The notes beneath the pieces were generated by a model that searched no databases, was not told where the DNA came from, and saw only the letters and a list, made by a program, of their open reading frames with translations. DNA of 64,000 nt from positions 126,197,518 to 126,261,517 of the forward strand of contig NC_092038.1 of the NCBI RefSeq assembly GCF_003086295.3, written 5' to 3'. Each line of letters starts with the position of its first letter. Within the stretch, counting starts at the first letter, position 1. Shown in pieces: positions 23,086 through 40,712 of this stretch. Source of the DNA: Arachis hypogaea. Taxonomy: Eukaryota > Streptophyta > Magnoliopsida > Fabales > Fabaceae. A program made the position numbers and the translations under genes.

Positions 23086-23285
23086 ATTGTGTTTTTGCTG
23101 ACTGTTGATACTTTTTGGGTTGCTTGTTTAGCAACTTTTATTTTGCAAAGAACAAAGTAGTTTCCGAGCTTCTTGGGCTGATTTTGGTGGCCTTTGAAGC
23201 TTGCTATTTATCAAAACTTAGTAGTTTTTATATCATGTCTGCTTGTGCTCGTCTTGGTAACTTCGTAGGCTTGGACTTTGTTTGT

Positions 23286-23717
23286 AATCCTCCTTTTGGA
23301 CTTTATTTAGGTCTCTTTTTTGGGGATTACCTTTGTAGCTTTACAACTTTCTGGGCCGACTTCGTCATGTCGGGCCTTGTCGAGTTACTTGGTAATCCTC
23401 TTTTCTTGGACCTCGTTCGGGTCTCTTTCGGGGATTACTTTTTGTAGCTTTACATCTTTCTGGGCCAACTTCGTCATGTCGGACCCTGTCGAGTTACTTG
23501 ATAATCCTCTTTCTTGGACCTTGTTCAGTTCTCTTTCAGGAATTTATCTTTTGTAACTTATCTTTCTGGGCCGACTTTGTCATGTCGGGCCCTGTCGAGT
23601 TACTTGATGATCCTCTTTCTTGGACCTTGTTTAGGTCTCTTTCAGGAATTATCTTTGTAACTTTTTGTAGGAGTCCGACTTCATCATGTCGGGCTCTTCA
23701 AAGTTATAGTAATCCTC
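23286..23717. repeat. Tandem repeat in element B 3' region, four units of about 102-109 bp
   Basis: Units end with AATCCTC or GATCCTC at about 23285, 23394, 23503, 23609 and 23711, giving periods of 109, 109, 106 and 102. Each contains a phrase like GACTTCGTCATGTCGG followed by GTCGAGTTACTTG. A partial, more diverged unit continues to about 23800. Tandem arrays in this position are known for Tat/Ogre elements. Confidence 0.85.
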
Positions 23718-27871: not shown

Positions 27872-29392
27872 TGGTGCACGAAATTGCAATCACACTTTGC
27901 AATCTCGCACAACTAACCAGCAAGTGCACTGGGTCGTCCAAGTAATACCTTACGTGAGTAAGGGTCGATCCCACGGAGATTGTCGGCTTGAAGCAAGCTA
28001 TGGTTATCTTGTAAATCTTAGTCAGGATATCAATAATTATCAAGGTTGATTGTGAAAAGTAAAAGAACATGAAATAAGTACTTGTTTTGCAGTAATGGGG
28101 AACAGGTTGAGGTTTTGGAGATGCTCCATCTTCTGAATCTTTGCTTTCCTACTGTCTTCTTCTTCAAGCACGCAAGGCTCCTTCCATGGCAAGCTGTATG
28201 CAAGGATTTCACCGTTGTCAGTGGCTACCTCCCATCCTCTAAGTGGAAATGTTCAACACACCCTGTCACGGCACGGCTATCCATCTGTCGGTTCTCAATC
28301 AGGCCGGAATAGAATCTAGTGATTCTTTTGCGTCTGTCACTAACGCCCCGCCCTCAGGAGTTTGAAGCTCATCACAGTCATTCAATCATTGAATCCTACT
28401 CAGAATACCACAGACAAGGTTTAGACCTTCCGGATTCTCTTGAATGTCGCCATCAATTCTAGCTTATACCACGAAGATTCTGATTAAGGAATCCAAGAGA
28501 TATCTACTCAATCTAAGGTAGAACGGAGGTGGTTGTCAGGCACGCGTTCATAGTTGAGAATATGATGAGTGTCACGGATCATCACATTCATACGGGTTAA
28601 GAACAAGTGATATCTTAGAACGGAAGCAAGCATGATTGAATAAGAAACAGTAGTAATTGCATTAATCCATCAAGACACAGCAGAGCTCCTCACCCCCAAC
28701 CATGGGGTTTAGAGACTCATGCCGTAGGAAGTACACAAAGAAACGTGTAAAATGTCATGAGATACAGATACAATGTCAAAAGATCCTATTAATAGTAAGC
28801 TAGTAACCTAGGGTATACAGAAATGAGTAAAATGACGTAAAAATCCACTTCTGGGTCCACTTAGTGTGTGCTTGGGCTGAGCATTGAAGCTTTCATGTGT
28901 AGAGACTTTTTCTGGAGTTAAACGCCAGCTTTCATGCCAGTTTGGGCGTTTAACTCCAATTTTTATGCCAGTTCCAGCGTTAAACGCTGGGAATTCTGAG
29001 GCTGATTTGCAACGCCGGTTTGGGCCATCAAATCTCGGGCAAAGTATGGACTATTATACATTGCTGGAAAGCCCAGGATGTCTACTTTCCAACGCCGTTA
29101 AGAGCGCGCCAATTGGGCTTCTGTAGCTCCAGAAAATCCACTTTGAGTGCAGGGAGGTCAGAATCCAACAGCATCTGCAGTCCTTTTCAGTCTCTGAATC
29201 AGATTTTTGCTCAGGACCCTCAATTTCAGCCAGAAAATACTTGAAATCATAGAAAAACACACAAACTCATAGTAAAGTCCAGAAAAGTGAATTTTAACTA
29301 AAAAATAATAAAAATATACTAAAAACTAATTAGATCATACTAAAAACATACTAAAAACAATGCCAAAAAGCGTATAAATTATCCGTTCATCA
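27872..29392 (-). repeat. Element C 3' LTR (1521 bp)
   Basis: On the plus strand it starts TGGTGCACGAAATTGC and ends ATCCGTTCATCA; on its own strand it begins TGATGAACGGATAA and ends TGCACCA. It holds three copies of the palindrome at 28914, 28945 and 28976, exactly 31 bases apart. No gene inside. Confidence 0.93.
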
Positions 29393-29429
29393 CAACACCA
29401 AACTTAAATTGTTGCTTGTCCCCAAGCAA
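29393..29429 (-). other. Element C polypurine-tract region with stem-loop
   Basis: Directly upstream of the 3' LTR on the minus strand: TTGCTTGGGGACAAGCAA (an inverted repeat TTGCTTG/CAAGCAA), a short spacer, then TAAGTTTGGTGTTG next to the LTR. This is where plus-strand priming must occur. A near copy lies at 31476-31511. Confidence 0.6.
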
Positions 29430-30323
29430 CTGAAAATCAAAGTAGGATAAAAAGAAGAGAATATACTATAGACTCCAAAATATCAAGGAAACTTAGCTCC
29501 AATTAGATGAGCGGGACTAGTAGCTTTTTGCTTCCGAACAGTTTTGGCATCTCACTTTCTTCTTTGAAGTTCAGAATGATTGGCATCTATAGGAACTCAG
29601 AACTCAGATAGTGTTATTGATTCTCCTAGTTAAGTATAATGATTCTTGAACATAGCTAGTGTATGAGTCTTGGCTGTGGCCCAAAGCACTCTGTCTTCCA
29701 GTATTACCACCGGATACATACATGCCACAGACACATACTTGGGTGAACCTTTTCAGATTATGACCCAGCTTTGCTAGAGTCCCCAATTAGAGGTGTCCAG
29801 GGTTCTTAAGCACACTCTTTTTTTCTTGGGTCACAACTTTATTTCTTTCTTTTTCTTCTATTTCTTCTCTCTTTTTTTTCGTTTTTTTTGAATCACTGCT
29901 TTTTCTTGCTTCAAGAATCAATCTGATGATTTTTCAGATCCTCAATAACAGTTCTCTTTTTCCTTCATTCTTTCAAGATCCAACAATTTTAACATTCTCA
30001 AAATAACAAATTCAAAAGACATATGCACTGTTCAAGCATTCATTCGGAAAACAAAAATTATTGTCACCACATCAAACTAATTCAACTAGTTTCAAGGATA
30101 AATTCGAAATCCTGTACTTCTTGTTCTTTTGTGATTAAAGCATTTTTCATTTAAGAGAGGTGATGGATTCATAGGACACTCATAGCTTTAAGACATGAAT
30201 TTTAAATTTTATTAATTATGAATTAAGAACAAGACTAAAAAATAGATATAAGATGAGACTAAAAATAGAAAACAAAAAATTTAAATAGGCTCCTAATGAT
30301 AGAGGTTTTCACAGAGTTAGGAC
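29430..30323. other. Element C spacer between env-like ORF and 3' LTR
   Basis: About 0.9 kb without a supported gene. It includes a pyrimidine-rich tract (29815-29900) and AT-rich sequence. Confidence 0.65.
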
Positions 30324-31435
30324 TCAACAACCTTGATTTTGAGAAGTGGATGCTCCCTCAAATTGAGGGGAGAATTTTTGGCGTTTCAGTTCTTGAAGTT
30401 CACGCCCCTGCTTCTCTTGTTCCTTCAGCAATTTGCAAAGCATGCAGTTCTGATTCTGCTGTTCTTCCTTAAGTTGCTCCATAGTCTCTTGCAACTTGGT
30501 GATAGATGCTTCTAGGCTGGCCCAGTAGCTAATTTCAGGAAATTCAGGGAGGAACTCCTGCGCCCTCCTTTTGATAGAGTTGTCTTGCATTTGTCCTTCC
30601 ATTGCCTTCTTGGTGATTGGATGTTCAATGGGTATGAATTCATCTACTCCCATCTTTACCCCAGCCTTTTTACAGAGCAAGGAGATCAAGCTTGGGTAAG
30701 CCAGTTTGGTTTCAGTGGAATTCTTATTTGCAATTGTGTAGATCTCACAAGCAATCACATGATGAACCTCCACTTCTTTTCCAAGCATAATGCAATGAAT
30801 CATCACTGCTCTCTTGAGAGTGACCTCAGAACGGTTGCTAGTGGGCAGTATGGAACGCCCAATAAAGTCTAGCCAACCTCTTGCAATTGGTTTGAGGTCT
30901 CCCCTCTTGAGTTGGTTTGGGACACCCTTTGAATTGGTTATCCACTTAGTTCCAGGGAGGCATATGTCCTCTAGAACTTGATCCAACCCTTTATCTGCTC
31001 TCACCATTCTCCTATTAAAGGATTCAGGATCATCCTGCAGTTGAGGCAATTTGAAGATTTCTCTTATTTTGTCCAGATGGAAGTACATAACTTTCCCTCT
31101 GACCATGGTTCTGTAAGTATGGTAAGCAGTTCCAGTCATTCTCTGCTAATTTGTTAGCCACAGATTTGAGTAGAATTCCTGAACCATATTTCTTCCAACC
31201 TTTATCTCAGGATTTTGGTTAGAACTTCCCATCCTCTGTTTCGAATTTGCTCTTGGATCCCCGGATATTCATCTTCTTTCAGATCAAATTTAACTTCCGG
31301 GATCACTGACCTCAGACCCATTATTTTGTGATAATGGTCTTCATGTTCTTTGGTTAAGAACTTCTCTTGATTCCAAAGATTCTTTGGATTATTCTCTTTC
31401 TTTCCTTTTAAATTGGTTTGTTTTCCCTTAGGAGC
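30324..31435 (-). pseudogene. Element C env-like ORF, one frameshift and one stop
   Basis: It sits in the envelope position of a retrovirus-like element, between pol and 3' LTR. It starts MAPKGKQTNLKGKKENNPKN at 31435 and is open to a stop near 31200. The homology then resumes in another frame with a TAG near 31150, and is open from ATG 31139 to the stop at 30324. The second part (271 residues) has the plant 'transposase 32/putative plant transposon protein' look (RGWLDFIGRSILP, AVMIHCIMLGKEVEVHHVIA), then a Gln/Glu/Lys coiled coil. I see no convincing signal peptide or membrane segment, so 'env-like' describes position only. Confidence 0.75.
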
Positions 31436-31844
31436 CATGATCTTGATGAATCTTGGCTTAGTGATCACGGAAAAGCACACCAAACTTAGAGGTTTGCTTG
31501 TCCTCAAGCAAAAGAAAGGAAAGAAGAGAGAGAGGAGAAGAGCAAATTCGAATGGTGTGGGGGAATGAGGAGGCCGAACGTGTTTTTATAAGGGGGGGAA
31601 GGAGATTTCGAAAAAATTGAAAGGAGATTTGAGAAGATATGGAGAGAATTTGAGAGGAGGGTGAGTTTTTGAATAAGATTTGGGATTGATTTGAGAGAGA
31701 TTTGAAGAATGATTTTGATTTTTGAAGATTTGAAAGTGAATGATGAAAGGTTGAGATGTGTTTATGTAGAAGAGTATGGGTAAGAAAAGGAAACTTTGAA
31801 GAAAAATTTGATCGGAAAGCAAAATCTTGGTCCCCCACCTTTCT

Positions 31845-32139
31845 GGCGTTAAACGCCCAGAATGGCATCCATTCTGGTGTTTAACGCCCATTTGCTGCCC
31901 ATTGTGGGCGTTTAACGCCCAGCCAGGTGCCCTGGCTGGCGTTAAACGCCAGAATTCCCTTTATCACTGGGCGTTTTGCTAAACGCCCAGGACGCTGCAC
32001 ACCTGGCGTTAAACGCCCAGAATGGTGCCCATTCTGGCGTTTAACGCCCAAAATGGCACCTTTACTGGCGTTAAACGCCCAGAATGGTGCCCATTCTGGC
32101 GTTTAACGCCCAAAGTACCCCTTACTGGCGTTTTTTCGC
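31845..32139. repeat. Ten-copy phased palindrome array in element C
   Basis: Copies of GGCGTTAAACGCC or its reverse complement GGCGTTTAACGCC start at 31845, 31876, 31907, 31938, 31970, 32005, 32036, 32067, 32098 and 32127. Steps are 31, 31, 31, 32, 35, 31, 31, 31 and 29. The two forms mostly alternate. Spacers such as CAGAATGGTGCCCATTCTG are themselves palindromic, so pairs form larger inverted repeats. The copy at 31970 has an extra TTGC in the loop and the last has a T-run in place of TTTAA. It lies between integrase and env-like ORFs and is non-coding. Confidence 0.95.
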
Positions 32140-32305
32140 CAGTAAGCTCTTTTTTTCTGCTTTTTGCACTGAATCCTTCTGTAACTCTGTGAATTCCTTC
32201 ATTTTTGATACTGGCCCTTGTAGAAACAAAACATATAACCTGCTAATGACTGGGTTGCCTCCCAGCAAGCTTCTTTACTGTCTTTAGCTGGACCCTTACT
32301 GAGAA

Positions 32306-35300
32306 TCACTCAAGTCTCAGTTTTGAGCATTCCTGCTCAAAATTGCTTTCAAGATAATGCTTGATTCTCTGTCCATTAACAATGAACTTTTTGTCAGAAT
32401 CAATATCCTGAAGCTCAACATATCCATATGGTGACACTCCTGTAATCACATACGGACCCCTCCACCGGGATTTAAGTTTTCCTGGAAACAATCTGAGCCT
32501 AGAGTTGAAGAGTAGAACTTTTTGTCCTGGCTCAAAGACTCTGGATGACAACTTCTTGTCATGCCACTTCTTTGCCTTTTCCTTATAAATTTTTGCATTT
32601 TCAAAGGCATTGAGTCTGAACTCCTCTAGCTCATTTAGCTGGAGCAATCTTTTTTCACCAGCTAACTGAGCATCCATGTTTAGGAACCTAGTTGCCCAGT
32701 AGGCTTTATGTTCCAGTTCCACGGGCAGATGACAGGCCTTCCCATACACCAGTTGGTATGGAGAGGTTCCTATAGGAGTCTTGAATGCTGTTCTGTATGC
32801 CCACAGAGCATCATCCAAACTCTTTGCCCAATCCTTTCTTCGGGCTATCACAGTCCGTTCTAGGATTCTCTTTAACTCTCTGTTAGAGACTTCAGCTTGC
32901 CCATTTGTCTGTGGATGATATGGAGTTGCCACTTTGTGGCTAATTCCATATCTGACCATAGCAGAGTATAGCTGTTTATTGCAGAAATGAGTGCCCCCGT
33001 CACTGATTAGTACTCTGGGAACACCAAACCTGCTGAAGATGTGTTTCTAGAGGAATTTCAGCACGGTCTTGGTATCATTAGTGGGTGTAGCAATTGCTTC
33101 TACCCACTTAGATACATAGTCCACTGCCACCAGAATGTAAGTGTTTGAGTATGATGGTGGGAATGGAACCATGAAGTCAATTCCCCATACATCAAACAAT
33201 TCAATCTCTAATATCCCTTGTTAAGGCATGGCATATCCGTGAGGCAAGTTACCAGCTCTTTGGCAATTGTCACAGTTACGCACAAACTCTCGGGCATCTT
33301 TATAGAGAGTAGGCCAGTAGAAGCCACATTGGAGGACTTTAGTGGCTGTTCGCTCACTTCCGAAATGTCCTCCATACTGTGATCCATGGCAGTGCCATAG
33401 GATCCTTTGTGCTTCTTCTCTGGGCACACATCTGCGGATCATTCCATCTGCACATCTCTTAAAGAGATATGGCTCATCCCATAGGTAGTACTTGGCATCT
33501 GAAATTAATTTCTTTCTTTGCACTCTGCTGTACTCCTGGGGTATGAACCTCACAGCTTTATAGTTTGCAATATCTGCAAACCATGGAGCTTCCTGAATGG
33601 CAAAGAGTTGCTCATCTGGGAAAGTCTCAGAAATCTCAGTAGAAGGGAGGGACGCCCCAGCTACTGGTTCTATTCGGGACAGATGATCAGCTACCTGGTT
33701 CTCTGTCCCTTTTCTGTCTCTTATTTCTATATCAAACTCTTGCAAAAGCAACACCCATCTTATTAGCCTGGGTTTTGAATCCTGCTTTGTGAGTAAGTAT
33801 TTAAGAGCAGCATGGTCAGTGTACACAATCACCTTTGATCCCACTAGATAGGATCTAAACTTGTCAATGGCATAGACCACTGCAAGTAATTCTTTTTCTG
33901 TGGTTGTGTAATTCTTCTGTGCATCATTTAGAACACGGCTGGCATAATAAATGACGTGCAGAAGCTTGTTATGCCTCTGTCCCAACACTGCACCAATGGC
34001 ATGGTCACTGGCATCACACATTAGTTCAAATGGCAATGTCCAGTCTGGTGCAGAGATGACTGGTGCTGTGACCAGCTTGGCTTTCAGGGTCTCAAATGCC
34101 TGCAGACACTGTGCATCAAACACAAATGGTGTGTCAGCAGCTAGCAGGTTGCTCAAAGGTTTTGCAATTTTCGAAAAATCCTTTATGAACCTTCTATAGA
34201 ATCCTGCATGCCCCAGAAAGCTTCTGATTGCCTTAACATTGACAGGTGGTGGTAATTTTTTAATTACCTCTACCTTTGCCTTATCCACCTCTATTCCCCT
34301 GCTTGAAATTTTGTGTCCAAGGACAATTCCTTCAGTCACCATAAAGTGACATTTCTCCCAGTTTAAAACCAGGTTAGTCTCTTGGCACCTTTTCAGGACA
34401 AGTGCTAGGTGGTTAAGACAGGAGCTGAATGAGTCTCCATACACTGAGAAGTCATCCATGAAGAGTTCCAGAAATTTCTCCACCATATCAGAGAAGATGG
34501 ATAGCATGCATCTCTGAAAGGTTGCAGGAGCATTACACAGACCAAAAGGCATCCTTCTGTAGGCAAACACGCCAGAAGGGCAAGTAAATGCTGTTTTCTC
34601 TTGGTCCTGAGGGTCTACTGCAATTTGGTTGTAACCCGAATAGCCATCCAAAAAGCAGTAATAATCATGACCAGCTAGTCTTTCTAGCATTTGGTCTATG
34701 AATGGTAAAGGAAAATGATCCTTTCTGGTGGCTGTATTGAGCCTTCTGTAGTCAATACACATACGCCACCCTGTGACTGTTCTTGTAGGAACCAGTTCAT
34801 TTTTTTCATTATGAACCACTGTCATGCCTCCCTTTTTGGGGACAACTTGGACAGGGCTCACCCAGGGGCTATCAGAAATAGGATAAATAATCCCAGCCTC
34901 TAGTAATTTAGTGACCTCTTTCTGCACCACCTCCTTCATGGCTGGATTTAGCCTCCTCTGTGGTTGGACCACTGGTTTGGCATTATCCTCCAACAGGATC
35001 TTGTGCATGCATCTAGCTGGGCTAATGCCCTTAAGATCCCTTATGGACCACCCAAGAGCTGTCTTGTGTGTCCTTAGCACTTGAATCAGTGCTTCCTCTT
35101 CCTGTGGATTTAAAGCAGAGCTTATAATCACTGGAAAAGTGTCACCCTCTCCCAGAAATGCATACTTCAGGGATGGTGGCAGTGGTTTGAGTTCAGGTTT
35201 GGGAGGCTTATCCTCCTCCTGAGGAATTTTTGAAAATTCCTTTGTTTTCTCTGGTTCTTCTTGATCAGGTTGAGCATCCTTGAAGATGTCCTCAAGCTCT

Positions 35301-37312
35301 GATTCCAGACTTTTAGTCATATTGATCTCTTCTACCAGAGAGTCAATAATGTCAGCACCCATGCAGTCATTTGGTGTGTTTGGATGCTGCATAGCTTTTA
35401 CAGTATTTAACTTGAACTCATCCTCATTGACTCTCAGGGTTACTTCCCCTTTTTGTACATCAATGAGAGTTCGTCCAGTTGCTAGGAAAGGTCTTCCTAG
35501 AATGAGAGTTGCACTCTTGTGCTCCTCTATTTCCAGCACCACAAAGTCAGTTGGAAAGGCGAATGGCCCAACCTTGACAATCATGTCCTCTATTATGCCT
35601 GATGGATATTTAATGGAGCCATCAGCAAGTTGGAGGCATATCCGGGTTGGTTTGACTTCTTCAGTCAACCCAAGCTTTCTGATAGTGGATGCAGGTATTA
35701 GATTGATGCTTGCTCCAAGGTCGCACAGGGCTGTCTTGGTGCAAGCACCTTCTAATGTGCATGGTATCATGAAGCTTCCTGGATCTTGAAGCTTTTCTGG
35801 TAAGCTTTTCAAAATGACTGCACTGCATTCTTCAGTGAGAAACACTTTTTCAGTTTCTCTCCAATCCTTCTTATGACTTAAGATTTCTTTCATGAACTTA
35901 GCATAAGAAGGTATTTGCTCAAGTGCCTCTGCAAACGGAATCTTTATTTCAAGAGTCCTTAGATAGTCTGCAAAGCGAGCAAACTGCTTATCCTGTTCCG
36001 CTTGGCGGAGTTTCTGAGGATAAGGCATCTTGGCTTTATATTCTTCAACCTTAGATGCTGCAGGGTTATTCCTTACAGAAGTGGTTGAAGAAGCCTTTTT
36101 AGAGGGATTACTCTCAGCACTCTCAGGTGTCTGGTTCCCCTTTTGCGTTTGAACGCCAGGATTGGGTGGAAAATGGGCGTTTAACGCCAACTTTTCCCCC
36201 TTTTCTGGCGTTTGAACGCCAGAACTGGGCAGGGAATGGGCGTTTAACGCCAGCTTTCCCTCCTTTTCTGGCGTTTGAACGCCAATAGCATTCCTCTCTG
36301 GGCTCTTACTGTCCTCAGAGGGATTTTGGATAGTGGTTTGACTATCCTCTGTCAAGTGTTCCTTATTTGGCTTTTTGCTCTTTTGGGCAGTGTTATTCAA
36401 TGTCTTCCCACTCCTCAGTTGAACTGCTTGACATTCTTCTGTTATCTGTTTAGATATCTGCTGTTTTGCTTGATTCAACTGCAGTTCTATGTTCTTGTTA
36501 GCAACTTTAGTTTCATGGAGCATCTCTTTAAATTCTGCTAACTGTTTTGTCATCAGGAGCAATTGTTGATTAAGCTCAATCATCTGTTCTTGAGGAGTAG
36601 GATCAGTGGCTACTGCCATGACTTCCTCTTTTAGAGAGAACTCATTGCTAGAGTACAAATATTGGTTTCTAGCAACAGTGTCTATAAGCTCTTGAGCCTC
36701 TTCAATTGTCTTCCTCATGTGTATAGATCCACCAGCTGAGTGGTCTAAAGACATCTGAGCTTTTTCTGTAAGCCCATAGTAGAAGATGTCTAACTGTACC
36801 CATTCTGAAAACATTTCAGAGGGGCATTTTCTTAGCATACCTCTATACCTCTCCCAGGCATTATAAAGGGATTCATTATCCTCTTGTTTAAAGCCTTGGA
36901 TGTCCAGCCTTAGCTGTGTCATCCTCTTTGGAGGGTAAAAGTGATTCAGGAATTTGTCTGATAACTGTTTCCACGTCTTTATGCTCGCTGTAGGTTGGTT
37001 ATTCAACCACCTCTTAGCTTGATCTTTTACAGCAAATGGAAACAGTAATAGTCTGTAGACATCCTGATCTACCTCTTTATCACGTACTGTGTCAGCAATT
37101 TGTAAGAACTGTGCCAGAAACTCAGTAGGCTCTTCTTGAGGAAGACCAGAATACTGGCAATTTTGCTGCACTATGATAATGAGTTGAGGGTTTAGCTCAA
37201 AGCTGCTTGCTTTGATGGGAGGTGTACAGATGCTACTCCCATATGCAGCTGTAATGGGGTTAGCATATGACCCCAGAGTCCTTCTGGACTGATCAATCCC
37301 ACTTAGGTCCAT
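32306..37312 (-). pseudogene. Element C gag-pol polyprotein, nearly intact, broken in the integrase
   Basis: One frame from ATG 37312 to a TAA at 33221 (1363 residues), then homology to 32306. Order: Gag core (about 60-230: FAVKDQAKRWLNNQP, FLNHFYPPKRMTQLRLDI), a linker with a 21-residue repeat (about 346-390), protease (about 530: CDLGASINLIPAS; the Athila form has Leu where most have Ser), RT (YRRLNTATRKDHFPLPF, LDGYSGYNQIAVDP, LFMDDFSVYG), RNase H (ELMCDASDHAIGAVLG, VYTDHAALKYLL), integrase finger (HCHGSQYGGHFG, CDNCQ). Breaks: the TAA at 33221 and a TAG near 33047, both single-codon nonsense changes. The last part (32959-32306) with [10 protein letters not shown] and the C-terminal domain is open. 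No zinc knuckle in Gag. Confidence 0.92.
36144..36282. repeat. Five phased palindromes within the element C gag-pol frame
   Basis: GGCGTTTGAACGCC or GGCGTTTAACGCC-like motifs start at about 36144, 36176, 36207, 36239 and 36270 (steps 32, 31, 32, 31). Two steps make 63 bases, so on the coding strand they encode a 21-residue repeat containing GVQTPEK and KLALNAH. The first copy lacks one G. Confidence 0.92.
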
Positions 37313-37858
37313 AATGGATAAAGGAGAATGATATGGATTGCAAATAGATAAAAATATATTTTTTTTGAATTAACCGAAAAAAAATAAAATAAAATAAAAC
37401 AAAAGGAAAATAATAAAAAATAAAAATTCAAAAATTAAAAGAAAATAGGATCAAAGCAAATTGAAAACTGAATCAATTAGTTAATTAAAAAGATTTTGAG
37501 ATTAGCAATTAGAAAGATATGATTGAAAAATTTTTATGAAAAAGATTTGATTTTTGAAATGAGGAAAGAGAAAAACAACAAAATGACACCAAACTTAAAA
37601 TTTTTAGAAAATCTAACACTAATTTTTCGAAAATTTTAAGGGAAAAACACAAAGAGGACACCAAACTTAGAATTTTTACGGATCAAAAAGGGACTAAAGA
37701 CATGCAAATTCGAAAATTAGAAGAAAAACAAAAGCATGCAATTGACACCAAACTTAAAATATGAAACTAGACTCAACTAAAAGACTCTAAACCGACGAAT
37801 ATAAAACAGTCCTAATCTAAGCAACAAGATAAGCCGTCAGTTGTCCAAACTCGAACAA
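37313..37858 (-). other. Element C 5' leader with repeated ACACCAAACTTA boxes
   Basis: Non-coding, very A-rich on the plus strand. GACACCAAACTTA-type boxes lie at about 37585, 37668 and 37744. The same box ends the internal region at the 3' LTR (29395) and precedes the env-like ORF (31478). On the element's strand each reads TAAGTTTGGTGT. Confidence 0.7.
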
Positions 37859-37876
37859 TCCCCGGCAACGGCGCCA
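37859..37876 (-). other. Primer binding site, tRNA-Asp (element C)
   Basis: On the minus strand: TGGCGCCGTTGCCGGGGA, complementary to the 3' end of plant tRNA-Asp, six bases from the LTR end. The same primer class as in element B. Confidence 0.85.
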
Positions 37877-37882
37877 AAAACT

Positions 37883-39403
37883 TGGTGCACGAAATTGCAA
37901 TCACACTTTGCAATCCCGCACAACTAACCAGCAAGTGCACTGGGTCGTCCAAGTAATACCTTACGTGAGTAAGGGTCGATCCCACGGAGATTGTCGGCTT
38001 GAAGCAAGCTATGGTTATCTTGTAAATCTTAGTCAGGATATCAATAATTATCAAGGTTGATTGTGAAAAGTAAAAGAACATGAAATAAGTACTTGTTTTG
38101 CAGTAATGGGGAACAGGTTGAGGTTTTGGAGATGCTCCATCTTCTGAATCTCTGCTTTCCTACTGGCTTCTTCTTCAAGCACACAAGGCTCCTTCCATGG
38201 CAAGCTGTATGCAAGGGTTTCACCGTTGTCAGTGGCTACCTCCCATCCTCTCAGTGGAAATGTTCAACGCACCCTGTCACGACACGGCTATCCATCTGTC
38301 GGTTCTCAATCAGGCCGGAATAGAATCCAGTGATTCTTTTGCGTCTGTCACTAACGCCCCGCCCTCAGGAGTTTGAAGCTCGTTACATTCATTCAATCAT
38401 TGAATCCTACTCAGAATACCACAGACAAGGTTTAGACCTTCCGGATTCTCTTGAATGCCGCCATCAATTCTAGCTTATACCACGAAGATTCTGATTAAGG
38501 AATCCAAGAGATATCTACTCAATCCAAGGTAGAACGGAGGTGGTTGTCAGGCACGCGTTCATAGTTGAGAATATGATGAGTGTCACGGATCATCACATTC
38601 ATACGGGTTAAGAACAAGTGATATCTTAGAACGGAAGCAAGCATGATTGAATAAGAAACAGTAGTAATTGCATTAATCCATCAAGACACAGCAGAGCTCC
38701 TCACCCCCAACCATGGGGTTTAGAGACTCATGCCGTAGGAAGTACACAAAGAAACGTGTAAAGTGTCATGAGGTACAGATACAATGTCAAAAGATCCTAT
38801 TAATAGTAAGCTAGTAACCTAGGGTATACGGAAATGAGTAAAATGACGTAAAAATCCACTTCTGGGTCCACTTAGTGTGTTCTTGGGCTGAGCATTGAAG
38901 CTTTCATGTGTAGAGACTTTTTCTGGAGTTAAACGCCAGCTTTCATGCCAGTTTGGGCGTTTAACTCCAATTTTTATGCCAGTTCCAGCGTTAAACGCTG
39001 GGAATTCTGAGGCTGATTTGCAACGCCGGTTTGGGCCATCAAATCTCGGGCAAAGTATGGACTATTATACATTGCTGGAAAGCCCAGGATGTCTACTTTC
39101 CAACGCCGTTGAGAGAGCGCCAATTGGGCTTCTGTAGCTCCAGAAAATCCACTTCGAGTGCAGGGAGGTCAGAATCCAACAGCATCTGCAGTCCTTTTCA
39201 GTCTCTGAATCAGATTTTTGCTTAGGACCCTCAATTTCAGCCAGAAAATACCTGAAATCATAGAAAAACACACAAACTCATAGTAAAGTCCAGAAAAGTG
39301 AATTTTAACTAAAAACTAATGAAAATATACTAAAAACTAACTAGATCATACTAAAAACATACTAAAAACAATGCCAAAAAGCGTATAAATTATCCGCTCA
39401 TCA
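37883..39403 (-). repeat. Element C 5' LTR (1521 bp)
   Basis: Same length as the 3' LTR, with about 27 single-base differences counted by eye and no length change. The three palindromes recur at 38925, 38956 and 38987. Confidence 0.93.
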
Positions 39404-40712
39404 CTCCCCGGCAAATCCGCCGTGTATCATGTGTACATGTCTTTCTGGCATTCGAGATGATGGCGCGGTTGGTCCGACATCTTCTGCTCTTCTTCTTTTT
39501 CTTTGTTCATCATCATGGGTGGCCAGATATCGATCCAGCTTTCCTTCTCGTACGAGCTTTTCTATGACATTTTTTAAGTCGAAACACTCATTGGTGGAGT
39601 GCCCGCGGATCCGATGGTATTCACAATATTCAGCCCGGTTTTCTCCTCCTTTTTTGCCTTTGAGTGGTCGAGCTGGTGGTATTTTTTCCGTGTTGCAAAC
39701 CTCTCTGTATACATCCACAAGAGACACCCGAAGTGGGGGTGTAATTGTGGTATTTTTTTATTTTCTCTCCATGTCGATCCTCCTTCTTTCTGAAATCTTT
39801 GTCTTTATCCCGGGGGGTGAACCCAGCCTTCGAGGTCTCTCGTAATCGGGAGTTTTCCTCCATGTTGATGTACTTTTCCGCTTATTCCTGCACCTCGTTC
39901 AGAGATGTGGGGTACTTCTTTGATATAGATTGACTAAAGGGCCCTTCTCGCAAGCCATTAATGAGGCCCATAATAGCGGCTTCTATTGGCAGGTTCTGTA
40001 TATCCATGCATGTCTTATTTAATCTTTCCATGTAGTTACGTAGGGTTTCCCATTCTCCTTGCCTAATTTCCAGTAAGCTCAGAGCATGTTTAGCTTTGTC
40101 CTTTTGGATGGAGAATCTGGCCAAAAATTTCTTAGCCATGTCGTCGAAACTTGAGATGGATCTACAAGGGAGATTATCTCCGAGGGAGGTTGTTGAACCA
40201 TCTAATTGCTGTTTTTGTTAAAGTAGTTGGAAAGTCTTTGCAACGAACTGCATCTGAGGCGTCGGTGAGATACATTCTGCTTCTGAAGTTGCTGAGATGA
40301 TGGCTGGGATCTGTAGTGCCGTCGTATGAGGTCATGTCTGGGAGTTTAAAGTCCTTTGGGATTTTTGTTTTCATGATCTCCTTGGTGAATGGATCTTGCT
40401 CCTTGCGTTGCTATCTTCAGGAGTGGATCGGCTGGCTTTCGTCTTGACATCGGCCTCAAGTTTTAGGAGTTTGTTCTCCAATTCCCAGTGTCGCCTTATT
40501 TTCCTTTGTAGGTCCTTCTCGGCCTCTCATTGGCGTAAGGCTTCTTCCTCAAGTTGTTTTAACCGGTCTTGAAATGCATCCATGGCTCCCTCATTTGGGG
40601 AGTTCTTCTTGTTGTTGTTTTGGGAAGTATCTTTTGGGGTAGTGTCCGCGTTTTTATGCGACGTTCTTTCCTCTAGATATGAGGTGTGGTCGTTGTCATG
40701 GTCGTCTGCCAT
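39404..40712 (-). pseudogene. Element B gag, broken
   Basis: It begins MADDHDNDHTSYLEERTS at 40712 just inside the primer site. A stop follows near 40527; the capsid-like core continues in pieces: 40374-40174 (FKLPDMTSYDGTTDPSHHL, TAIRWFNNLP), 40139-39882 (AKKFLARFSIQK, GLREGPFSQSISKKYPTSL) and 39727-39404. The last has a zinc-finger-like CEYHRIRGHSTNEC followed by a charged tail. The FKLPDMTSYDGTTDP phrase is characteristic of Tat-lineage Gag. Element C interrupts it between the finger region and the protease. At least three stops or shifts. Confidence 0.85.

Follow-up and report, generated by a model that had tools for sequence, protein, structure and literature searches.

Palindromic arrays in a Ty3/gypsy retrotransposon

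The window, by which we mean the whole stretch of 64,000 nucleotides of Arachis hypogaea DNA that was analysed, carries a whole LTR retrotransposon of 11,533 bp (27872..39404, minus strand, like all features described below), which was delimited by self-BLAST of its LTR pair and by its flanks, where a 5-bp target-site duplication (GGGAG) was found. The 5' LTR in element sense (37883..39404, 1522 bp) is 98.2% identical to the 3' LTR (27872..29393) recovered in the same self-BLAST pair; the 27 differences correspond to an insertion age of about 0.7 million years at an assumed rate of 1.3e-8 per site per year. Pfam matches and translation identified a gag-pol ORF (33221..37369) encoding gag, aspartyl protease, reverse transcriptase (RT), RNase H and the integrase zinc domain, followed by a separate ORF for the C-terminal part of the integrase (32306..33046), whose match to Pfam rve lies below the curated cut-off and whose frame is interrupted upstream in this copy. 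A PF20167 (Transposase_32) gene region comes next (30324..31438; ATG at 31438, stop at 31202, ORF 31145-30324), its frame being interrupted as well. The gene order is gag, protease, RT, RNase H, integrase, PF20167 ORF and 3' LTR, with the Athila-lineage feature of an integrase after RT/RNase H and an additional ORF ahead of the 3' LTR. From its primer-binding site and layout we take the element to be Athila-like, the primer-binding site being presumably of the tRNA-Asp type, as in Athila4/Calypso; these peanut families are probably those named FIDEL and Feral.

Some further repeats were noticed. The polypurine-tract-like block GCTTGRGGACAAGCAA is duplicated at 29412-29427, adjoining the 3' LTR, and at 31494-31509, where the copy reads GCTTGAGGACAAGCAA and sits between an internal TATA box and the PF20167 ATG. 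Each copy is followed by AAGTTTGGTGT, which occurs five times in the window (29395, 31477, 37586, 37658 and 37745; 0.09 expected), always within this element and three times in the leader ahead of gag. Outside the element, the window holds a separate 106-bp tandem repeat of 3.5 copies (23285-23664).

Between pol/integrase and the PF20167 ORF lies an array of ten palindromic sites (31845-32140). Exact GGCGTTAAACGCC or its reverse complement begins at 31845, 31907, 31938, 32005, 32036, 32067 and 32098, a near-exact GGCGTTWAACGCC site with one mismatch at 31876, and two variants with altered centres at 31970 (GGCGTTTTGCTAAACGCC) and 32127 (GGCGTTTTTTCGCC). All ten starts given in the original prediction are correct, and the array does lie inside a retrotransposon, an 11.5-kb Ty3/gypsy (Athila-like) element; the motif that was announced for all ten holds exactly for seven and with one mismatch for an eighth, but not, in its centre, for the two variants. 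The steps are, in order, 31, 31, 31, 32, 35, 31, 31, 31 and 29 bp, seven of nine being 31 or 32 bp as had been noted. Spacers had been described as palindromic too, which applies to four of the nine in this array and not to the other five; overall, perfect palindromes make up 10 of the 128 distinct 18-nt spacers, where shuffling gives 3.0 on average. The palindromic site has the form GGCGTT-N(1-3)-AACGCC, with the core GGCGTT/AACGCC and two CpGs per site. Across the window, 30 matches to the motif with at most two mismatches were counted on both strands (shuffled mean 0.50).

Arrays of the same kind in both LTRs and inside the gag-pol ORF had been missed at first reading. The LTR array (38925..38999) has three sites at steps of 31 (38925, 38956 and 38987), and in element sense, on the minus strand, they read AGCGTTTAACGCT, GGAGTTAAACGCC and GGCGTTTAACTCC; its copy in the 3' LTR (28914..28988) has starts at 28914, 28945 and 28976. 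The array within the gag-pol ORF (36145..36283) consists of five coding sites of alternately 14 and 13 nt, an alternation that holds a 21-codon repeat in frame (21-residue peptide repeat GVQTPEK...LALNAH). The statement that no coding frame explains the motif is uncontradicted for 31845-32140, but this sister array is coding. The motif count of the element is 10, plus 5 coding and 3 per LTR.

Abundance and spacing of the motif in the genome

A search of the whole genome (2.557 Gb) for the exact 13-mer returned 74,671 + 74,475 matches (about 149,000), as compared to 4 + 5 = 9 for the reversed word used as a control. Among the first 58 of 100 listed places, 37 neighbour distances were below 150 bp and 35 of these were 31, 62 or 93, i.e. 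multiples of 31 bp. We fetched twenty loci around exact 13-mer matches and five further stretches. Since L009-L028 and L033 were chosen around exact motif matches, 21 of these 25 loci were picked because they hold the motif and the set is a non-random sample of the genome. Two of the four stretches placed blind to the motif carried arrays (L030 and L031), and a two-site 'array' in L032 was discarded as a false match in coding sequence. Each of the 102 exact sites in L009-L033, a set with this motif-based choice, had another site within 72 bp when partner sites were allowed up to 3 mismatches.

In the fetched arrays, 239 of 285 adjacent site centres are 30.5-32.5 bp apart. Spacers are 18 nt long in 216 of 286 cases, the mean identity among distinct 18-nt spacers being only 39%, and the centre of the site measures 1 to 3 nt, sometimes more. 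In what was sampled, neither related copies lacking the conserved spacing nor a common, unphased motif elsewhere, either of which would have refuted the original prediction, was encountered. The step had been read as three helical turns, and the distances between centres are consistent with that. The argument from helical phase nonetheless remains unproven because spacer indels are not significantly rarer than flank indels: spacer length showed no significant excess of conservation over flank length (p from 0.06 to 0.46 according to context). We retain a trend only and dropped the idea of strong purifying selection on spacing.

Arrays in a partner family and in more distant relatives

Of the 20 loci chosen by motif, 16 contain the linker of a second, partner family. 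The LTR of this family shares about 91% of its initial 626 bp with the window element. In L018 its main ORF contains gag and protease domains and no RT, RNase H or integrase domain, so that the family is, judging from its sequence, apparently devoid of RT and integrase genes. It retains LTR and internal arrays, an internal TATA box and a PF20167 gene: its arrays are found in the LTR, in the leader ahead of gag, and between the main ORF and the PF20167 gene of its own, and the inter-array distance in other copies of the family is the same as in L018. The leader array (L018 2160-2301) is homologous to part of the window array (31845-32000); arrays have therefore moved between elements. They are also present in the more divergent relatives L024, L025 and L031, and the copies tabulated have 5-10 sites upstream of PF20167. 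As a separate observation, two primer-binding-site-like stretches lie close together just inside the 5' LTR in copies of the partner family (L018:1188-1294 and L009:3893-3978).

Conservation of arms and divergence of spacers

To avoid circularity, copies were located by their flanks alone, blind to the motif, and duplicates were removed. For the LTR array (31 copies, 22 loci), diversity at non-CpG arm positions was 0.047, as compared to 0.224 in spacers (p=9e-7) and 0.158 in flanks (p=2e-4). For the array upstream of PF20167 (19 copies, 18 loci), the corresponding values were 0.039 for arms, 0.180 for spacers (p=2e-9) and 0.141 for flanks (p=4e-6). Non-CpG arm positions are thus 3-5 times less variable than spacers and flanks, with the residual bias that most loci had been picked for at least one exact 13-mer, while most LTR sites deviate from that exact word. 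Higher diversity was found at the CpG positions of the sites (0.128 and 0.125) than at the remaining arm positions, which is what one would expect of methylated DNA. Each core arm is conserved independently, with no compensation between the two. The array is real, abundant and conserved.

A second conserved box, GGCACC at the spacer centre, was considered and rejected as weak, no spacer column exceeding 1.0 bit in the pooled set. Between array and TATA box, the least variable block in the 19 copies lies about 67-85 bp downstream of the PF20167-upstream array (diversity 0.009-0.018). This block, for instance in L018 near 5770, contains CTGTGGACCCCACAG, an inverted repeat, and is possibly another cis element.

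TATA boxes downstream of two of the four array positions

In the window, an internal TATA box TATAAAAA (31583..31590) is located about 253 bp downstream of the array and is followed by a pyrimidine-rich leader. TATAWAW was found 230-315 bp downstream of the PF20167-upstream array in 20 of 24 copies (0.12 expected), or in 20 of 23 when one row that is a misfiled LTR array (L028:1197) is excluded. For the LTR array, 13 of 29 copies have it at a distance of 105-130 bp downstream (0.22 expected); the other 16 LTRs, both window LTRs among them, show no match to the strict pattern. No TATA box was detected downstream of leader arrays (0/13) or gag arrays (0/4). The TATA block is conserved over the 19 copies located blind to the motif, its diversity being 0.051 where the sequence downstream averages 0.140. 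Two of the four array positions hold their distance to the TATA box across families.

We consider it probable, if by no means certain, that the arrays are upstream regulatory boxes for a dimeric DNA-binding protein, serving both the LTR promoter and an internal promoter. At each GGCGTT-N(1-3)-AACGCC site a sequence-specific DNA-binding protein would bind as a dimer, and one site per about 31 bp would place bound dimers, which might bind cooperatively, on the same side of the helix. The rows would sit upstream of the LTR promoter and of a second, internal TATA promoter from which the PF20167 gene could be expressed as a separate mRNA, and a single factor could turn both transcription units on or off jointly. 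The binder would by default be a host transcription factor, the element's own PF20167 protein being another possibility; NAC/VOZ GCGT half-sites and CHR-type TTYRAA centres come to mind as host-factor guesses, for which we make no claim. The arrays of the leader and of gag, which no TATA box follows, have the look of auxiliary copies or of copies transferred from elsewhere. The original prediction had left the choice between dimer-binding sites and an RNA structure, and the former is the better supported half, arms being conserved while spacers diverge and a TATA box following the array. Regulatory boxes are also favoured by the partner family, which has kept arrays, internal TATA box and PF20167 gene, by the purifying selection on that gene, and by the like layout of Sireviruses described below.

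Several observations count against regulatory boxes for a dimer. A centre that varies from 1 to 3 nt, and is sometimes longer, is ill-suited to a rigid dimer; the TATA-less leader and gag arrays, the non-significant conservation of spacer length relative to flanks, the LTRs in which the pattern was unmatched, the choice of loci by motif, and the covariation of flanking positions and complementarity of spacers described below weigh in the same direction.

Should the binder be a host factor, the element would have scattered phased sites for it over the genome. About 149,000 exact copies in a single genome allow a direct search for the binder, and how plant env-like genes are expressed, an old question, becomes testable through the internal TATA box.

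Arrays as possible RNA structures

Alternatively, the arrays could act as RNA, neighbouring sites and palindromic spacers forming hairpins of 40-45 nt in the genomic RNA that would serve in packaging, let the PF20167 ORF be spliced or translated internally, or be processed into small RNAs by the host. The window array folds at -187 kcal/mol (z=-16 against dinucleotide shuffles), the gag array at z=-6.5 and the LTR array at z=-5.0. The folding that had been foreseen was thus observed, but it is not distinctive, because any row of identical palindromes would fold so. Controls in which sites were kept and spacers shuffled fold less strongly for all six internal arrays tested (z from -2.1 to -6.7), internal-array spacers contributing complementarity beyond the sites; in two LTR arrays and the gag array, by contrast, the gain in stability from the spacers is not significant. 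The complementarity of spacer ends slightly exceeds that of shuffles (10 of 1000 reach the observed value). In 6 of 9 arrays it is the antisense strand that folds better, which counts against the RNA reading.

Covariation is similarly divided. Across the dyad, covariation is seen at the four positions on either side of each core (351 pairs where 253 were expected, reached by 0 of 2000 shuffles, a figure uncorrected for related sites), whereas between the core arms compensation is absent (927 pairs, 927.8 expected). In genome-wide counts of CpG decay, the one compensated class counted comprised 2540 sites and the two uncompensated classes together 7017 (about 3508 each). No excess of G-U was found over A-C pairs (34 versus 53). 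The LTR neighbours GGAGTTAAACGCC and GGCGTTTAACTCC pair with each other and not with themselves, and pairing between neighbours is raised when this LTR pair is included (860 versus 836, 1 of 5000 shuffles) but is not above shuffles when it is excluded (590 versus 586). This covariation between neighbours does not extend to other arrays, and an inverted duplication could also have yielded the LTR pair. In the literature, as far as the available text goes, maize Sirevirus palindromes are described as small-RNA hotspots, which would suit a role in small-RNA processing.

RNA hairpins were rejected as the primary explanation and we regard them as unlikely, since covariation between core arms and an excess of G-U pairs are both absent, even though flanking covariation, the LTR pair and the spacer-shuffled folding lean their way; the remaining covariation, CpG-decay, pairing and G-U tests do not favour them. 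The RNA half of the original prediction is left with these three observations in its favour. Our conclusion is that what has been retained is the word as such, the extended dyad and inverted-repeat character of some arrays being secondary.

The PF20167 protein as a candidate binder

The PF20167 gene is under purifying selection, with a median dN/dS of 0.17 in 14 of 21 pairs (7 intact ORFs out of 27 fragments, 6 of them from the partner family; pairs with dS >0.02, unsaturated). The protein has a basic N-terminus and a predicted long C-terminal helix (305-362). Among named protein relatives, the nearest come from Arachis stenosperma and A. hypogaea; those in Stylosanthes are more remote. In a crude 19-residue hydropathy scan no clear membrane segment was found, the maxima being 1.39 in the L018 protein and 1.12 in window ORF 31145-30324; in the short upstream PF20167 piece, the two best values (1.59 and 1.48) fall ahead of its ATG. 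The term 'env-like' used for this ORF in the original prediction is doubtful for a PF20167 protein with no clear membrane segment and a predicted long helix at its C-terminus.

It is conceivable, though we give it a small probability, that this protein binds the arrays as an element-encoded activator or anti-silencing factor in the manner of VANC. The basic N-terminus and the predicted helix may suit a dimer, and selection has preserved the gene in a family apparently without RT and integrase genes. VANC targets are themselves short motifs in tandem repeats of noncoding regions, according to the available text of PMC5735166. On the other side, PF20167 could be matched neither to a known DNA-binding fold nor to DUF1985. 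The structure model, built from 56 of the 105 homologues found, matched no solved fold in a search that was weak because model pLDDT was 66; P0002, the PF20167 protein, matched PF20167 only when compared to Pfam up to E=10, and DUF1985 was not among the best 25 of 37 families matched by any of the 56 PF20167 members. Moreover, the sites are the same in both families, whereas window-type and partner PF20167 proteins are only about 44-46% identical.

An extended form of this proposal, which we likewise hold to be improbable, if faintly less so, is a self-regulating retrotransposon with two promoters: a nuclear, dimeric PF20167 protein, made from its own array-controlled promoter, would bind the LTR and linker palindromes and activate or de-silence the families that share the box. 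If true, self-regulation would explain why box and gene are both retained in a family without RT and integrase genes, and some 10^5 phased binding sites for one selfish protein would exist in a crop genome.

Possible passive expansion of a 31-bp unit

The arrays might finally be a passive minisatellite, its 31-bp unit expanded by slippage or by strand transfer during reverse transcription and then copied around without function, a reading to which we assign as small a probability as to binding by PF20167. A weak common core persists in the spacers, the homology of the partner-family leader array to the window array indicates that units do move, and, in the available text of PMC11963269, tandem repeats whose function is unknown occupy the same region between pol and the 3' LTR in about half of the recently active Retand elements studied. 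Drift, however, would not hold arms 3-5 times less variable than intervening spacers in motif-blind copies, and by this the minisatellite is largely refuted unless a mutational cold spot had exactly that shape. Two of the four positions also hold a distance to the TATA box across families, and the coding copies of the window gag ORF stay in frame.

Comparison with known systems

Rows of protein-binding sites are known from other transposable elements. The insulator of the Drosophila gypsy element consists of 12 sites in a row for the zinc-finger protein Su(Hw); it resembles the present arrays as a row of sites in a gypsy element but is not palindromic in this way and lies within the 5' untranslated region. 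According to the available text of PMC10760457, the cis-regulatory regions of transposable elements often consist of repeat arrays, some of them palindromic, and arrays of palindromic repeats recur as a form of such regulation, which limits the novelty of our observation. Text searches of the literature with the 13-mer and 11-mer cores and for peanut, Athila and gypsy palindromes returned, among the matches listed, no title or abstract on this array, subscription papers being mostly outside their coverage.

Among Athila-type elements, Athila4 and Calypso resemble the window element in an extra gene after the integrase and an extra polypurine-tract-like tract in the linker (29412 and 31494 here, where priming is putative). 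The available text of PMC2829016 reports the extra polypurine tract in Athila4/Calypso linkers and predicted splice acceptors for the Athila env-like gene, and mentions no palindromic arrays for these elements, unlike what we describe here. The anti-silencing system of VANDAL elements, in which VANC proteins bind short tandem-repeat motifs (available text of PMC5735166 and PMC10398659), shares with the peanut elements a short repeated motif in noncoding transposon parts and an extra encoded protein. It differs in that VANDAL is a DNA transposon, the VANC21 motif is non-palindromic and VANC carries DUF1985.

The closest parallel is offered by the RM boxes of Sireviruses (Bousios et al. 2010, PMC2829016), which the available text describes as palindromes that lie above the TATA box in the LTR and a second time 5' of env, for which an internal promoter has been hypothesised. 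Both systems have a CpG-bearing palindromic word in high copy, clustered in the LTR and 5' of the extra gene. RM boxes are further characterised by at least eight copies per element, a number that the window element reaches, and by forming CpG islands. RM boxes were reported there as Sirevirus-specific in a comparison of Ty1/copia elements, whereas the carrier here is Ty3/gypsy, with the order gag-PR-RT-RH-IN. The core is GGCGTT/AACGCC instead of the Sirevirus CGG-CCG, although 1 of the 13 published RMs (Tnd-1) is also without CGG-CCG in that text. The peanut arrays further differ in having only 3 sites per LTR in the window, in their regular 31-bp register, and in extra copies in the gag ORF and in the partner-family leader. 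While the Sirevirus LTR cluster lies above a TATA box, the strict TATA pattern follows the three LTR sites in the 13 of 29 copies mentioned above and is absent from the window LTRs. By this analogy, the arrays appear to work like Sirevirus RM boxes without being one; they are a gypsy variant whose 31-bp register is regular. That gypsy elements show the same layout with an unrelated word suggests that a single switch shared by two promoters has evolved repeatedly in retrotransposons.
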